A DNA stretch of 64,000 nt from the NCBI RefSeq assembly GCF_017811755.1, contig NZ_JADDJF010000007.1:62001-126000 (forward strand). Reading direction: 5' to 3'. Within the stretch, counting starts at the first letter, position 1. Each line of letters begins with the position of its first letter. Under the pieces are notes generated by a model. That model saw only the letters and a list, made by a program, of their open reading frames with translations, searched no databases and had not been told where the DNA came from. This DNA comes from Pararhodobacter sp. SW119 (GTDB lineage: Bacteria; Pseudomonadota; Alphaproteobacteria; Rhodobacterales; Rhodobacteraceae). Below, piece by piece: positions 3,151 to 60,193 of the stretch. The translations under genes and the position numbers were made by a program.

Positions 3151-3224
3151 TGCTCAAGCTTGAGCAATCGGATAAGCGCTTGAAACAAGGTGAAAAGAGT
3201 TTTTTCAGAAACCATTTATTAACC
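3151..3224 (+). repeat. Palindrome-spacer-AACC element, copy A
   Basis: A perfect 16-bp palindrome TGCTCAAGCTTGAGCA (3151-3166) is followed after exactly 41 nt by GAAACC (3208-3213), five bases, then TTAACC (3219-3224). Inside the spacer an inner AAGCGCTT dyad sits 10 bases after the palindrome. The same geometry recurs at 55282, 57890, 60120 and, inverted, at 36026. This copy lies in the convergent gap between pyc and the C45 gene, 53 nt past the pyc stop. There is no T-run directly after the palindrome, so it is not a normal intrinsic terminator. Function unknown. Confidence 0.75.
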
Positions 3225-31543: not shown

Positions 31544-32440
31544 ATGGCAGCGCAGAAGGCACAACCGGCGGTTCTGAAGATCGCGCTGCTCACCGCGGCG
31601 GCCATGGTGGCCTTCGCGGCAAACTCGATCCTCAACCGCCTGGCGCTGGCGGGCGGCCATATCGACGCCGTCACCTACACCGGCATGCGGCTTCTGTCGG
31701 GGGCGGTGATCCTCGCGCTGATCCTGTCGCTGCGCGGCCGCGCGCCGCGCCGCGACCGCCTCGGCGGCAGCCTGGGCGGAGCCCTTGCGCTTCTCGCCTA
31801 CGCGATCGCCTTCTCGCTGGCCTATCTCGAGCTGGCGGCGGGGACGGGCGCGCTGATCCTCTTCGCCTCGGTGCAGATCGCCATGCTCGGCTGGGCCCTG
31901 CGCCGGGGCGAGCGGCCGGGCGCCTTCGAATGGCTGGGCTTTCTGGTCGCGGGCGCGTTCCTGCTGGCGCTGCTCTTGCCCGGCGCGACGGCCCCGGACC
32001 CGCTGGGCGCCGCGCTCATGGTGCTGGCCGGGATCGCCTGGGCGGCCTATTCGCTGATCGGTCGGGGATCGGCGGCGCCGCTGGTCGATACCGCCGGCAA
32101 CTTCATCCGCTGCCTGCCGCTGGCGCTGCTTTTCCTCCTGCCGGGCCTGATCCTGCAGACCGCCAGCCCCGCCGGCTGGGGCTATGCCATTGCCTCCGGC
32201 GCGCTGGCCTCGGGACTGGGCTACGCCATCTGGTACAGCGTCCTGCCCGCCCTGACCCGCATCTCGGCCGCCTTCGTGCAGCTCAGCGTCCCGGCCATCG
32301 CGGCGGCAGGCGGCGTCGTCTTCATCGCCGAGCCCCTGACCCTGCGGCTGACCGTCTGCGCAGTCGGCATCCTGGGCGGGGTAGCGCTCGCCCTCTGGGC
32401 CGCCGAAGCGCGCAAGGCGCGCGTCCCGCCCCACAAATGA
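31544..32440 (+). CDS. DMT-superfamily transporter (EamA-type)
   Basis: 298 residues, ten predicted membrane spans in two EamA repeats (first from about 10, second from about 155: MVLAGIAWAAYSLIGRGSA). Such proteins export amino acids, metabolites or drugs. ATG 31544 follows AAGGG. Substrate cannot be inferred. It is followed by the longest gap in the window. Confidence 0.88.
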   Translation: MAAQKAQPAVLKIALLTAAAMVAFAANSILNRLALAGGHIDAVTYTGMRLLSGAVILALILSLRGRAPRRDRLGGSLGGALALLAYAIAFSLAYLELAAGTGALILFASVQIAMLGWALRRGERPGAFEWLGFLVAGAFLLALLLPGATAPDPLGAALMVLAGIAWAAYSLIGRGSAAPLVDTAGNFIRCLPLALLFLLPGLILQTASPAGWGYAIASGALASGLGYAIWYSVLPALTRISAAFVQLSVPAIAAAGGVVFIAEPLTLRLTVCAVGILGGVALALWAAEARKARVPPHK

Positions 32441-32818
32441 AGCGCGTTCCGCCCGAAACCAAGGCGCGGACCCCCCTTCGGGGACGCCTTCGCGGAGTCC
32501 GTTCGACCGGCCCGGAGGCGCCACCACGCCAATTCGGTGCCATATGTAGTGTACGACATCAGCCCGACTACAAAACGCCCCGAAAAATGTGCAAAATTCA
32601 AACGCGCAAAAATGACGTTTCTTTTCACTTTCGACCAAAAAACCGTCGCTCACTTTCACGCTTGGGGCAAAACCCTAAAAATTTCGACGATTTTCGGGCG
32701 CGAGCGGCCAGTTGCTCACGCGTGAGCACCCGACCCCATTTCGAGAAGGTCCGGCCCCCGCGGCCACGGCGTCCGAATGGCCGCCGCAAGGCGGTCGCCA
32801 CCCCGCCCGCGCCTCCGC
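32441..32818. other. 378-nt convergent gap, partly AT-rich
   Basis: Between the DMT transporter and pyrF stops. Bases about 32,560-32,695 are clearly richer in A and T than the surroundings and contain no convincing ORF. A perfect 16-bp palindrome TGCTCACGCGTGAGCA lies at 32713-32728. On the minus strand an AT-rich spacer follows it, as in the five-copy element, but the hexamers at the expected position are not recognisable (TTTGCC at most). I treat it as a possible decayed copy. Confidence 0.5.
32713..32728. repeat. 16-bp palindrome, possible degenerate copy D
   Basis: TGCTCACGCGTGAGCA, same arms as copy A except for the central bases. It lacks the downstream AACC hexamers at the fixed distance on both strands. 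Confidence 0.4.
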
Positions 32819-33523
32819 TCACGCTGCGCCGCGCAGCTCCGCCAGCACCGCCTCGGCCGCGGCCCGGGGGTCCGCCGCCTGCCAGATCGGCCGGCCGATG
32901 ACGATGTGATCCGCCCCCGCCCGGACCGCCGCCGCCGGGGTCGCGATGCGCTTCTGATCGCCCGCCGCGCTGCCCGCCGGGCGCACCCCCGGCGTGACGA
33001 TCAGCCGGCCCGCCGCCTGGGGCAGGGCGCGGATCGCCGCGGCCTCGTGCGGGCTGGCGATCACCCCGTCGGCGCCCGCCTCGAACGCCCGCGCCGCGCG
33101 CAGCGCCACGATCTCCTCCATCGTGCCAGGGGCGATCAGCGCGGCGTCCAGATCCGCCCGGTTCGAGGAGGTGAGCACCGTCACCGCAAGGATCTTCAGC
33201 CCCGATCCCGCCGCCCCCGCCCGCGCCGCCCGCACCACGTTCGGATCGCCGTGTACGGTCAGGAAATCCAGACCGAACCGCGCCACCCCGGCCACCGCGG
33301 CCTCCACCGTCGCGGGGATGTCGAAGAACTTCATGTCCAGGAAAATACGCTTGCCGTGCTCGGACTTCAGCTCGTTCGCCAGCGCCAACCCGCCGGCGGT
33401 CAGCATCCCCAGTCCGATCTTGTAGAACGCGACCGCCGGCCCGATCCGCTCCACCAGCTTCAGCCCGGTCAGCGGGTCCGCCACGTCCAGCGCGACGATC
33501 AGCCGCTCGTCGGCGTTGTTCAT
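32819..33523 (-). CDS. pyrF: Orotidine 5'-phosphate decarboxylase
   Basis: 234 residues. Last step of UMP synthesis. Seen: LIVALDVADP near 8, FLDMKFFDIPATV near 61 with the catalytic Asp-Lys-Asp, VTVLTSSNRADL, and the phosphate loop IVTPGVRP near 176. It starts at the overlapping TGATG with the upstream methyltransferase; GGAAAGGA is the binding site. Complete and ordinary. Confidence 0.96.
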   Translation of the reverse strand: MNNADERLIVALDVADPLTGLKLVERIGPAVAFYKIGLGMLTAGGLALANELKSEHGKRIFLDMKFFDIPATVEAAVAGVARFGLDFLTVHGDPNVVRAARAGAAGSGLKILAVTVLTSSNRADLDAALIAPGTMEEIVALRAARAFEAGADGVIASPHEAAAIRALPQAAGRLIVTPGVRPAGSAAGDQKRIATPAAAVRAGADHIVIGRPIWQAADPRAAAEAVLAELRGAA

Positions 33524-35952: not shown

Positions 35953-36026
35953 CATTTCAATCGGGTTAACAGCCAAAAGTTTTGTTTTGACAATCAAGGT
36001 CTTGAAAGAATGCGCGCATGCGCGCA
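35953..36026 (-). repeat. Palindrome-spacer-AACC element, copy F
   Basis: On the minus strand: palindrome TGCGCGCATGCGCGCA (36026-36011), exactly 41 nt, TTAACC (35969-35964), five bases, then GAAATG (35958-35953), a close match to GAAACC. The inner site reads TCAAGACCTTGA, 7 bases from the palindrome. It lies downstream of, and co-oriented with, the uspA-like gene, in a convergent gap, as in the other copies. Confidence 0.7.
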
Positions 36027-50402: not shown

Positions 50403-50531
50403 GAGGGCCGCGCCGCCCGCCACCGGGCCGGCGCGGCGCCGGCCTCCGGCACCCCGCGACTTGCCGAAAATCCGCCTCCACCCGGCCCGCGGCGTCGTGC
50501 CGCGCCGGTTAACAGGTCCGATGCGCAACGC

Positions 50532-50597
50532 TCGGAACTGCCATACGTTTGCCATACGCTTGCCAGCCACTTGCCATACGCCTGCCAGCCACCTTGC
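50532..50597 (+). repeat. 11-bp tandem repeat array, copy 2
   Basis: Same as the array at 15738 with only about six differences: TCGGAACTGCCATACGTTTG and onward, about five and a half 11-bp units. It starts 130 nt after the glyS stop and about 150 nt before the PPDK-like gene. Both arrays run in the same direction as the gene upstream. Confidence 0.8.
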
Positions 50598-50684
50598 CAG
50601 CGCCCCGGAACCCCTTTCATCCACCTGATTTCTGCACTTGCACGGTGCGCCCAAACCCCTATCTTGCCCGGGTCAGGAGTCCCC

Positions 50685-55281: not shown

Positions 55282-55355
55282 CGTCCGCATGCGGACCGAA
55301 GATCAAGATATTGATATAATATATAAAAAAGCGTGATCTTAACCTGAGCGAAGCC
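55282..55355 (+). repeat. Palindrome-spacer-AACC element, copy E
   Basis: GTCCGCATGCGGAC (55283-55296, 14 perfect bp of a 16-bp site), exactly 41 nt, TTAACC (55339-55344), five bases, GAAGCC (55350-55355). The inner site is GATCAAGATATTG, 12 of 13 matches to an IHF consensus. The spacer is very AT-rich (TTGATATAATATATAAAAAA). Here the gap is between co-directional genes, unlike the other copies. Confidence 0.72.
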
Positions 55356-55513: not shown

Positions 55514-56521
55514 ATGAGCCGTCGCATTCTCCACTGGCCGGAACCGCGCAGTGACCTGCCGCGCCCGGCGGGCAGCCGGCCGCTGGCAGGGTCGGCGCAT
55601 GTCTGGTTCGCACGTGTCCGCGCGATGGATGCCGCGCGCGGCCCGGCCGAGGCCGACCCCACCGCCGCCGACCGTCTGGCCGCGCCGCGCCCGGTCCTGC
55701 CCGGCCTGCCGGCCGAGCGGCCGCTGGTCATGGGGATCGTCAATGTCACGCCCGACAGTTTTTCGGACGGCGGCGAGACGCCGGATCGTGCCTCGGCCGT
55801 CGAGCGGGCCCGCGCGATGGTCGCGGCCGGGGCCGACATGCTGGACATCGGCGGCGAATCGACCCGCCCCGGCGCGGCGGACGTGTCGGTCCCCGAAGAG
55901 ATCGCGCGCACGGTGCCGGTCATCGCCGAATTGCGCGCCGCCGGCATCACGGCGCCGATTTCCATCGACACCCGCAAGGCCGCCGTCGCCGAGGCCGCGC
56001 TGCACGCGGGTGCGAACATGGTCAACGACGTGGCCGCCCTGACCCACGACCCTGAACTGGGCCCGCTGGTCGCCGAGGCCGGCGTGCCACTCTGCCTGAT
56101 GCACGCGCAGGGCACGCCGCAGACCATGCAGGTCGACCCGCGCTATGACGATGCGCTGGTCGAGGTCTTCGACTGGCTGGCCGGGCGCATGGACGCCGCC
56201 AACGCCCACGGGATCGACCGGGCGCGGCTGATCGTCGATCCCGGCATCGGTTTTGGCAAGACGGTTGAACACAACATCACGCTTCTGAAAGGATTGGCGC
56301 TGATGCATGACCTCGGCGCGCCGATCCTGCTGGGCGCCTCGCGCAAGCGATTCATCGGCACGATCTCGGGCGTCGAGGTGGCGGGGCAGCGGCAGGCCGG
56401 GTCACTGGCCGTGGCGCTGCACGCGGCGGGGCAGGGGGCGCAGATCGTGCGCGTCCACGACGTGGCCGAGACGGTGCAGGCGCTCGCGCTCTGGCGGGCA
56501 TTGACGACGGAGGACGCATGA
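55514..56521 (+). CDS. folP: Dihydropteroate synthase
   Basis: 335 residues. Joins pAba to the pterin pyrophosphate; target of sulfonamides. [18 protein letters not shown] near 75, [15 protein letters not shown] near 115, and the [13 protein letters not shown] and GASRKRFIG signatures. The first ~70 residues are an unconserved extension, so an internal start is possible, though none has a good binding site. Overlaps glmM start by four bases. Confidence 0.95.
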
Positions 56522-57861
56522 GCCGGAAACTCTTTGGCACCGACGGGGTGCGCGGGCAGGCCAATACCTGGCCGATGACCGCGGAACTGGCGTTGCGGCT
56601 GGGGGCGGCGGCGGGGCTGTATTTCCGCACCGACGGGTCGAACGGGCATCGCGTGGTGATCGGCAAGGACACGCGGCTGTCGTGCTACATGCTGGAGAAC
56701 GCGCTGACCGCCGGGCTGGCCAGCACGGGCATGAACGTGCTGCTGCTCGGCCCGGTGCCGACGCCGGCGGTGGGGTACCTCACGCGGTCGATGCGCGCCG
56801 ATCTGGGCATCATGATCTCGGCCAGTCACAACCCGGCGACCGACAATGGCATCAAGTTCTTCGGCCCCGACGGCTTCAAGCTGTCGGACGAAGCGGAAAC
56901 CGCGATCGAGGCCATCCTGGAGCAGCAGATCGACCCCGCCCCGCCCCTGGAAATCGGCCGCGCGCGGCGGATCGAGGATGGCTTGGGCCGCTATGTCGAA
57001 TACGCCAAGACGACGCTGCCGCGCGGGCTGCGGTTGAGCGGGTTGAAGGTGGTGATCGACTGCGCCAACGGCGCCGCCTACCGCGCCGCGCCCGAAGTGC
57101 TGTGGGAACTGGGCGCCGAGGTGATCGCGGTCGGCGTCAGCCCCGACGGGCTGAACATCAACCGCGACGTGGGCTCCACCCATCCGCGCGCGGCGGCCGA
57201 GACGGTGGTGGCGCACGGCGCGGATCTGGGCATCGCGCTGGATGGCGATGCCGACCGTGTAATCCTCATCGACGAGAACGGAAAGGTGGCGGATGGCGAC
57301 CAGATCATGGCGCTGCTGGCCGGCCGCTGGGCCGAGGCCGGGCGGCTGAACGCAGGCACGCTGGTCGCCACGGTGATGTCAAACCTGGGGCTGGAGCGGC
57401 ATCTGGAGGGACGCGGGCTGCGGCTGGAACGCACCGGCGTCGGCGACCGCTACGTGGTCGAAAGGATGCGCGCGGGCGGCTACAACCTAGGGGGCGAGCA
57501 GTCGGGGCATATCGTGATGACCGACTACGCGACCACCGGCGACGGGCTGATCGCCGGCCTGCAGTTCCTGGGCGCAATGATCGAGACTGGGCTGCCGGCG
57601 AGCGCCCTGGTCCACCAGTTCGACCCGGTGCCGCAACTGCTGAAGAATGTCCGCTATGCGGCGGGCCAGACGCCGATGGAGGCCGCCTCGGTCAAGGCCG
57701 CGATCCGCGACGCCGAGGCCCGGCTGGAAGGGTGCGGCCGGCTTCTGATCCGCAAGTCCGGCACCGAGCCGCTCGTCCGCGTGATGGCCGAATGCGAGGA
57801 CCCTGCGCTGCTGGAAGCGGTGGTCGATGGCCTGGTCGAGGAGATCGAGGCGGCGCTCTGA
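56518..57861 (+). CDS. glmM: Phosphoglucosamine mutase
   Basis: 447 residues. Converts glucosamine 6-phosphate to the 1-phosphate for peptidoglycan and [16 protein letters not shown] at 4, catalytic Ser in [17 protein letters not shown] near 101, metal loop [11 protein letters not shown] near 243, and a C-terminal phosphate loop [14 protein letters not shown]. Start overlaps the folP stop. Normal length. Confidence 0.97.
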
Positions 57862-57889: not shown

Positions 57890-57963
57890 TGTGCAAGTTG
57901 CACAACCCCATCAAGGCATTGAAATCCAAAGATTGTCGCCGCGGCGTTAACCTTCTCGAAACC
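57890..57963 (+). repeat. Palindrome-spacer-AACC element, copy C
   Basis: TGTGCAAGTTGCACA (15 bases, one central base fewer than the other palindromes), 42 nt, TTAACC (57947-57952), five bases, GAAACC (57958-57963). Inner site CATCAAGGCATTG. Hexamer order is TTAACC then GAAACC, the reverse of copies A and B. Located in the convergent gap of glmM and manC, 28 nt past the glmM stop. Confidence 0.73.
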
Positions 57964-60119: not shown

Positions 60120-60193
60120 TGTCCAAGCTTGGACAATCGGACAACCTTCTGATAGTGAACATTAAAAGACGTGATTGAAACCAAATCTTAACC
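60120..60193 (+). repeat. Palindrome-spacer-AACC element, copy B
   Basis: TGTCCAAGCTTGGACA (60120-60135), exactly 41 nt, GAAACC (60177-60182), five bases, TTAACC (60188-60193). The 7 bases after the palindrome (ATCGGAC) nearly match copy A (ATCGGAT); beyond that the spacer differs, but hexamers and their pitch are the same. It lies 77 nt past the DUF1499 stop and 31 nt before the DUF815 stop. Confidence 0.78.

Follow-up and report, generated by a model that had tools for sequence, protein, structure and literature searches.

The window, a 64-kb stretch of DNA, belongs to a 4.51-Mb draft genome in 192 contigs (G000, called the source genome below). By the protein encoded at 56518-57861, its closest named relatives are Pararhodobacter marinus, with 84% identity, and, with 90%, the MAG Rhodobacteraceae bacterium CSSed165cm_500. 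Five copies of a composite element, consisting of a palindrome, a spacer and two tandem hexamers, had been reported from an earlier sequence-only reading, and all five were recovered at the positions given there. A covariance model built from 24 copies of the source genome (R1) finds exactly these five in the window and nothing more, and another model (R3) finds the same five and one palindrome-only remnant at 32706-32728; the training sets of R1 and R3 included window copies, and tests against chance were done separately. The parts of the copies are as follows.

3151-3166, plus strand: palindrome of copy 1, TGCTCAAGCTTGAGCA, 16 bp, perfect
3173-3185, minus strand: IHF-type site of copy 1, TAAGCGCTTGAAA on the plus strand, YAANNNNTTGAWW, assigned by position class
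3208-3224, plus strand: tandem hexamers of copy 1, GAAACC-N5-TTAACC
55282-55297, plus strand: palindrome of copy 2, CGTCCGCATGCGGACC, 7 of 8 pairs
55304-55316, minus strand: IHF-type site of copy 2, CAAGATATTGATA on the plus strand, a full match to the spacer motif YAANNNNTTGATW
55339-55355, plus strand: hexamers of copy 2, TTAACC-N5-GAAGCC
57890-57904, plus strand: palindrome of copy 3, TGTGCAAGTTGCACA, odd, 15 bp
57912-57924, minus strand: IHF-type site of copy 3, CAAGGCATTGAAA on the plus strand
57947-57963, plus strand: hexamers of copy 3, TTAACC-N5-GAAACC
60120-60135, plus strand: palindrome of copy 4, TGTCCAAGCTTGGACA
60142-60154, minus strand: IHF-type site of copy 4, CAACCTTCTGATA on the plus strand, one letter off
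60177-60193, plus strand: hexamers of copy 4, GAAACC-N5-TTAACC
36011-36026, minus strand: palindrome of copy 5 (the minus-strand copy), TGCGCGCATGCGCGCA
35992-36004, plus strand: IHF-type site of copy 5, CAAGACCTTGATT on the minus strand
35953-35969, minus strand: hexamers of copy 5, TTAACC-N5-GAAATG
32713-32728, no strand assigned: sixth site, palindrome only, TGCTCACGCGTGAGCA, matched by R3 with E 0.014 over model positions 5-27 only

The gene that ends at 57861, just upstream of copy 3, is presumably glmM. The sixth site, which sits between the convergent genes 31544-32440 (plus strand) and 32819-33523 (minus strand), is perhaps a decayed copy. The hexamers had been assigned to the type KWAACC, a description that two second hexamers, GAAGCC (55350-55355) and GAAATG (35953-35958), do not fit. 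A separate intergenic array of 11-bp units (GCCATACGTTT, GCCATACGCTT, GCCAGCCACTT and similar) occupies 50505-50610 of the window, and it recurs at many places in G008, a genome of the same genus, and in several convergent regions of the source genome.

Abundance, spacing and spread

The hexamer pair alone (KWAACC-N5-KWAACC) matches 35 times in the 4.51-Mb genome, as against 4 times for the reversed pattern, and in 27 of these 35 matches, which were chosen without regard to palindromicity, a palindrome is centred 47-50 nt upstream. A 28th candidate (L013, 6 of 8 pairs) was dropped by eye as a chance match, and L009 and L035, also with 6 of 8 pairs, were retained. Model R1 finds at least 150 copies in the source genome, all with E ≤ 1.5e-7. 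There are 29 copies in 400 kb of contig C1 and 35 in 397 kb of C116 and C105 (two of the 35 being partial matches, and one antisense row omitted), which together with the five window copies makes 69 in 860,928 bp and, by extrapolation, ∼360 per genome, in line with the few hundred that had been anticipated. Over the same 860,928 bp the layout with relaxed hexamers and a gap of 39-43 nt occurs 34 times, in every case in intergenic DNA (34 of 34), and it is absent from five first-order Markov controls. The histogram of gaps between palindrome and first hexamer, drawn from 20 to 69 nt, contains 20 cases at 40 nt, 13 at 41 nt, one at 42 nt, one at 32 nt and none elsewhere, and the gap is 40-41 nt in 33 of the 34 strict cases; the spacing claimed earlier is thus nearly constant, but its commonest value genome-wide is 40 nt and not 41 nt. 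Chance origin is ruled out by the reversed-pattern counts, the E-values of R1 and the gap histogram with its Markov controls, and the element is confirmed as a real, recurrent composite present in hundreds of copies.

Within the genus, G008 carries at least 89 copies, three of 11 genomes carry one to three, and seven of 11 carry none. Models for the two orientations of the IHF-type site are positive in at least 23 and at least 25 of 394 Rhodobacteraceae genomes. Two or more matches are present in 17 genomes of the first set and 19 of the second, and combined carriers number at least 37 of 394, the source genome included, if both scans drew the same 394 genomes. R1 alone is positive in at least 9 of 248 genomes. 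In these scans 11 or 18 candidates were scored per genome. A class-wide scan with one model gave 0 of 385, and that model misses the source genome too. The source genome and G008 hold many differing palindromes, unlike carriers having a fixed palindrome of their own: the palindrome pattern matches 48 times in G137 (all GTGCACATGTGCAC among the matches listed), 25 times in G263 (24 of them reading GTCCACATGTGGAC) and 10 times in G084, with no reversed matches in these genomes, and a GTCCCA-N3-TGGGAC palindrome is found in several other carriers. In G137 and G263 the anchors are fixed and the stretches between them vary, a pattern that would fit binding sites under selection better than recent copying.

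For logo and alignment 127 copies were retained after duplicate removal, 100 from the source genome and 27 from G008, leaving out, from the C116 and C105 set, two partial matches, one at a contig end and one antisense echo. The best spacer matches among these copies score 0.66-0.72, hardly above the 0.59-0.68 reached in column-shuffled copies, and for a copy that G008 has and the source genome lacks, the closest relative shows 80% identity over 79 bp. Both observations rule out simple recent duplication for the copies in hand, as the sequence-only reading had maintained. Copies of unlike sequence share place and orientation between the source genome and G008 at L201/L038, where both flanks match, and at L200/L061 and L294/C1:202663, where one flank matches; a separate MAG contig, L066, has a copy at the position of window 55278. 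Copies at one junction lie in opposite orientation in the two genomes in the cases of L293/L020 (both flanks matching) and L292/L049 (one flank). Copies at L197, L210 and L215:12930 are present in G008 only, and those at C1:192612, C1:343406 and window 55278 (against L298) in the source genome only. Two empty sites are nearly clean, with ∼85-90 bp at L197 in G008 where the source genome has 8, and ∼90 bp more at L210 than in the source genome; the intergenic DNA of the two genomes is too diverged for base-exact insertion boundaries.

Among 80 loci around the glmM match in named relatives, R1 matches L066 and L092, R2 matches L092, L076 and L127, and R3 matches L066, L092 and, weakly, L107 (E 0.008). 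The element stands directly behind the glmM match in one Pseudorhodobacter and two Tabrizicola MAGs, as it does in the window. The glmM-side copies located in MAGs with model R2 are the following.

L076, 5904-5990
L092, 2031-2117
L127, 5166-5252

The junction orthologous to that of window 60120 contains no element in G001, G002, G003, G004, G006 and G009, by eye and with all three models. At this junction L166 and L167 (from G009 and G006) hold another hairpin-like sequence, GGGTGCGTGA(GG/TT)CACGCACC, which is perhaps a different gene-end repeat.

Position and polarity at gene ends

Genes were called with a home-made codon-usage caller. The 69 copies of the source genome comprise 53 between convergent genes, 14 between tandem genes (nine on the same strand, five opposite), one between divergent genes and one at a contig end. 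Among intergenic regions of at least 100 bp, a copy is carried by 49 of the 78 that are convergent, a figure somewhat inflated by length selection because the element itself adds ∼75 bp. The corresponding figures are 14 of 156 for tandem regions (Fisher 8e-18) and 1 of 108 for divergent ones (Fisher 3e-23).

Terminators and distances to stop codons were analysed in convergent regions of 30-600 bp with both gene scores ≥20. The palindrome end of single copies in convergent regions is the one nearer a stop codon in 33 of 45 cases (medians 34 and 74 nt; Wilcoxon 3e-4). Pairs of copies less than 400 bp apart in the stretches read are tail-to-tail in eight of eight cases, so that both palindromes face their own gene, with offsets of 102-103 bp in five pairs and of 134, 171 and 212 bp in the others; two further pairs from the genome-wide list have offsets of 92 and 113 bp. 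Of 64 copies from five other genomes, a set that includes at least one wrongly oriented G263 copy, 12 are unplaceable and 34 of the remaining 52 lie behind a gene in sense orientation; the exceptions amount to 18 of the 52, and to 4 of 5 in G402.

Terminator-like sites, identified with a home-made score, are rarer where the element is present. At score 11 they occupy 11 of 96 strand-ends as against 24 of 84 in element-free convergent regions (Fisher 0.005), with the same direction at score 9 (19 of 96 against 30 of 84) and at score 13 (6 of 96 against 16 of 84); counted by regions, the depletion is moderate (11 of 48 against 19 of 42, p = 0.04). Of 45 single-copy regions, nine have such a site on the strand of the palindrome side and two have one on the hexamer side. 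In at least 2 of 48 regions the site that the scan scored as terminator-like is the palindrome itself. A strict one-way terminator was dropped because tandem copies in the source genome are divided nine to five in orientation, orientations are mixed elsewhere, and one junction can be occupied in opposite orientations in two species, an arrangement hardly expected of a device with strict polarity. Convergent regions without the element at C1 169242-169737, 220244-220482 and 222216-222573 (L184, L187) contain a long GC-rich repeat, CCCGCCCCTCGTCAGGCTG-like and then CCTCGCGTTGGGCCGGGCGCCGCGC-like.

Dyad symmetry and the IHF-type site

The logo of the 127 copies displays a G-rich flank, the palindrome [TGC]G[TC]NC[AG][AC][AG] with its mirror, a CAAGNNNTTGAWW block at model positions 27-39 and an AT-rich stretch followed by TTAACC-N2-A-N2-GAAAC and TTT. 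Five of the 127 copies fail to align as palindromes, and pairs were counted in 116 even-length copies. Pairs 6-11 are Watson-Crick in 113-116 of the 116, the base pair at position 8 being C-G in 53, G-C in 34, T-A in 20 and A-T in 6 copies, and G.T fills 2 of 696 cells. Complementarity is seen in 114 of 116 copies at pair 11-14 (A-T in 57, C-G in 56), the pair expected to close a loop of 2 nt, in 96 of 116 at the central pair 12-13 and in 91 of 116 at the outermost pair 5-20, with G.T (12) no commoner than A.C (10) in the outermost pair. In a shuffle test on 24 copies, none of 500 shuffles matches the observed covariation score or percentage paired, and cells changed on both sides are also far above the shuffles, but two measures, the number of pairs changed on both sides and that of further pair types, do not exceed the shuffles (325 and 449 of 500). 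The covariation of the arms noted earlier is supported by two of these measures, although part of the symmetry is model-selected, the copies in the 24-copy and 127-copy analyses having been found with a pairing-rewarding model. Pairing that extends to the centre, switching between A-T and C-G at 11-14, for which an RNA hairpin should have no need, and the near absence of G.T point to a duplex-DNA dyad rather than an RNA hairpin. A selected nucleoprotein or RNA architecture had been proposed from the sequence; the former is upheld, and RNA can no longer be regarded as equally likely, given the pairing at the centre and G.T in 2 of 696 cells.

The spacer, previously described as mostly unrelated between copies, contains an IHF-type site at a fixed place. 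The E. coli IHF consensus is WATCAANNNNTTR, and the spacer motif YAANNNNTTGATW (also written CAAGNNNTTGATW) is the exact reverse complement of this consensus; YAAN4YTG is found at the same spacer place in 23 of 27 source-genome copies picked by hexamers and palindrome and not by models. In some other Rhodobacteraceae the site is flipped (AATCAANNNNTTR) and lies at the mirror position. Three G053 copies have, in place of the motif, AATCAATGGGTTA or AATCAATGCATTA, which represent the consensus read from the opposite strand. The best IHF-type 13-mer reads on the reverse strand and starts at model position 27 in 71 of 100 copies of the source genome, 23 of 27 of G008 and 16 of 20 of G137. A forward-strand site starts at 38-40 in 12 of 20 copies of G263, 11 of 11 of G053, 6 of 6 of G304 (one copy with a shifted start, L381, being left out) and 6 of 6 of G402, the counts for G304, G402 and most of G053 not being independent because these copies were found with model R2, which contains the forward site. 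The counts for G263, G137 and the 27 copies are not produced by a model, since the G263 and G137 copies were collected by palindrome letters and the 27 by hexamers and palindrome. Both orientations are present in G263 with one identical palindrome (12 forward and 3 reverse at 27 by count in 20 copies; 6 reverse by eye). In the source genome 20 of 100 best matches read forward elsewhere; 11 of those 20 start at 24 and represent the opposite-strand reading of the nearly symmetric CAAGNNNTTG core. The argument for IHF is carried by the fixed position and not by the score, since 7 of 9 consensus letters are also reached in 13-41% of shuffled spacers.

The forward and reverse placements are mirror images about model position 39. 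IHF-bound DNA has its bend centred at this end of the consensus, and the bend would therefore be unchanged when the site is turned round. The implied bend at 39 is ∼26 bp from both the palindrome centre (12.5) and the centre of the first hexamer (∼64). The geometry is strict in that an asymmetric bend site is turned round only about a fixed centre, and a DNA complex folded by IHF, or by a protein of its specificity, is predicted with good confidence. In G137 and in some G084 copies a palindrome half-site, GTGCAC or GTGGAC, is repeated immediately ahead of the hexamers, on the far side of the bend from the palindrome (L260-L264, L265-L272), and in several G084 copies the first hexamer is replaced, with only the second reading TTAAC.

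Candidate roles of the element

Read as a whole, the element would be a duplex-DNA composite in which an IHF U-turn separates a pair of inverted half-sites from two arm sites in tandem, spaced by 11 bp, as in phage lambda attL. In the mechanism proposed here, a dimeric protein would occupy the two inverted half-sites of the palindrome, and IHF, binding between, would produce a U-turn whose centre is ∼26 bp away from that of the palindrome and equally far from the first hexamer. This would bring the tandem hexamers, one helical turn (11 bp) apart, alongside the palindrome, where another domain of the dimeric protein, or else a different protein, would grip them and so close a loop. Lying soon after a stop codon and chiefly between convergent genes, such a clamped loop might stop or insulate RNA polymerases arriving from either side. 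The copies may have spread long ago, perhaps as a non-autonomous repeat, with the anchors kept by selection and other sequence left to drift. Given the fold, we would put a barrier role at slightly better than even; the complete reading, an IHF-folded barrier or boundary complex at transcription-unit ends, is predicted with a confidence close to, if a little short of, even. Against a barrier, 5 of the 14 tandem copies in the source genome point the other way, and the preference for convergent regions would equally follow from insertion tolerated only there.

The main rival takes each copy as the attL-like end of a non-autonomous element that would be mobilised by a tyrosine recombinase of the two-domain (lambda) type, or by some other recombinase that depends on IHF, with the palindrome as a core half-site pair with a 6-bp overlap, the hexamers as arm sites, tail-to-tail pairs as full elements, single copies as remnants, and gene ends as the places where insertion harms least. 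In lambda attL IHF at H' bends the arm, and Int on core half-sites C' and B reaches the tandem sites P'1 and P'2 (PMC4880445). The element agrees with attL in the number and order of its components (two inverted core half-sites, one IHF site, two tandem arm sites); in attL a bivalent protein bridges the core half-sites across IHF to the arm sites (PMC4880445), as may be the case in the element. The mobile reading also draws support from presence and absence with near-clean empty sites (L197, L210), the patchy occurrence within the genus (at least 89 copies in G008, none in seven of 11 genomes), the genome-specific palindromes of G137 and G263, and the offsets of 102-103 bp in five of the eight tail-to-tail pairs. 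Unlike attL, however, the element exists as hundreds of scattered copies whose palindromic cores have no shared overlap, and no integrase gene is arranged with the copies as far as seen. There are no recent duplicates among the 127 copies, the nearest relative of a G008-only copy being 80% identical; even among copies with an identical palindrome the sequence between the fixed anchors is free to vary, as in binding sites and not as in copied elements; and no target duplication is seen in alignments of the source genome with G008, where intergenic divergence is high. Tyrosine recombinase matches (PF00589) number only 7-9 per genome in four genomes, with none clearly associated in the part examined: one of the seven in the source genome (C105:26842-27390), apparently a housekeeping Xer protein judging by its score, has a weak copy 104 bp away (L251:7494-7579), and the other six have no copy close by among those listed. 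Taken together, these observations leave mobility as a serious but unlikely explanation.

Sites for CtrA, DnaA and IHF lie together at the Caulobacter origin; all three are core proteins, and the DnaA box of high-GC genomes is TTGTCCACA. A chromosome or cell-cycle site, in which the hexamers form a complete CtrA box (TTAA-N7-TTAA), palindromes of some genomes approximate two head-to-head DnaA boxes and IHF joins these parts, would serve to titrate or recycle regulators or to organise the nucleoid. We regard this as improbable, even though TGTCCACA half-sites in G263, G402 and G084 resemble that DnaA box, because these proteins are core and the element is patchy, with at least 37 of 394 family genomes positive and no copy seen in the majority of relatives. 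The palindromes TTTCACGCGTGAAA, GTCCGAGCTCGGAC and GTCCCA-N3-TGGGAC, moreover, misfit the DnaA box. The full CtrA site is TTAA(N7)TTAA (PMC6180460), and the hexamer pair has the same period and partly the same letters, those of G053 and part of G263 reading TTAA-N7-TTAA; however, the second half-site in the source genome is mostly GAAAC and not TTAAC, and the element follows gene ends rather than promoters (1 of 108 divergent regions). An RNA-level element, in which a hairpin close behind the stop codon serves as a terminator or shields the 3' end of the mRNA and the remaining parts are incidental, would account for the median distance of 34 nt from palindrome to stop codon, where hairpins are common, and for the strong covariation by two of the four shuffle measures. 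It is nevertheless very unlikely, as complementarity reaches the centre of the dyad and G.T pairs are nearly absent from the stem (though a hairpin needed on both strands would avoid G.T too), the copies inspected by eye have no U-tract directly after the palindrome, and anchors 50-60 nt further on are conserved as strongly as the stem. No Rfam family matches above threshold: a scan of the window gave 0 matches above the gathering score, and a scan of eight loci gave only two weak hits, which overlap the element in L308 with E-values of 0.05 and 0.48 and reach 24 bits where the thresholds are 218 and 51. The dyad pairing pattern rules out an RNA hairpin as the main reading, and an intrinsic terminator, that is an RNA hairpin with a direct U-tract, was rejected on the lack of a U-tract by eye and on complementarity to the centre. 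Membership of a REP/BIME family with a REP-associated Y1 transposase is scarcely credible, although the element resembles REP/REPIN-RAYT systems in its hundreds of intergenic palindromic copies, inverted pairs, location at 3' ends and genome-specific palindrome. REP sequences bear a GTAG tag, whereas the element is a perfect palindrome without it, a duplex-DNA dyad rather than a tagged hairpin, with IHF and hexamer parts alien to REPs; its 127-copy logo contains no REP motif, as judged by eye. REP/RAYT was rejected because the transposase (Y1_Tnp, PF01797) is lacking in six carriers (G008, G137, G084, G263, G053 and G110, of which G008 and G137 are incomplete); the source genome gives three partial PF01797 matches.

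Closest in kind to the element are the RIB/RIP repeats of enterobacteria, BIMEs composed of REP sequences with Y and Z motifs that bind IHF and lie at 3' ends. Boccard and Prentki reportedly described such repeats (RIB) at gene ends in 1993, and we know of no settled function for them. Like them, the element is a short intergenic repeat at 3' ends that combines a palindromic part with an IHF site, IHF-type by sequence in this case; unlike them, it is a single perfect 15-16 bp dyad without a REP sequence, occurs in Rhodobacteraceae, and has an IHF-type site mirrored about a fixed bend centre with tandem hexamers 11 bp apart beyond, and it thus differs in both sequence and geometry. The earlier statement that no named element has this layout holds in that no Rfam family reaches threshold, but the E. 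coli RIB/RIP repeats are a clear functional parallel. The element amounts to a far more regular version of the enterobacterial repeats, present in 49 of the 78 sizeable convergent junctions examined in one genome. A search of open-licence literature found no description of it in that literature. Returning to the IHF-folded barrier, we suggest, with some reserve, that the element may constitute a previously undescribed gene-end class: an IHF-folded clamp with the geometry of lambda attL that would mark or block convergent transcription over much of a genome, bound by a fast-evolving dimeric protein such that the palindrome differs by genus and the geometry is kept.

The element offers directly testable sites for the meeting points of two transcription units, and carriers with one fixed palindrome provide bait for the palindrome-binding protein. 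Searches for a partner protein with PF01797 and PF00589 yielded no candidate, and among 20 G137 and 20 G263 sites inspected for the genome-specific palindrome outside the element context no autoregulatory site was recognised. Four of these 40 sites are not element-like, G137 L330 and L332:1794 lying near contig ends and G263 L336:3414 and L341 being unfit in the chosen orientation; L336:3414 is a full model match on the other strand.
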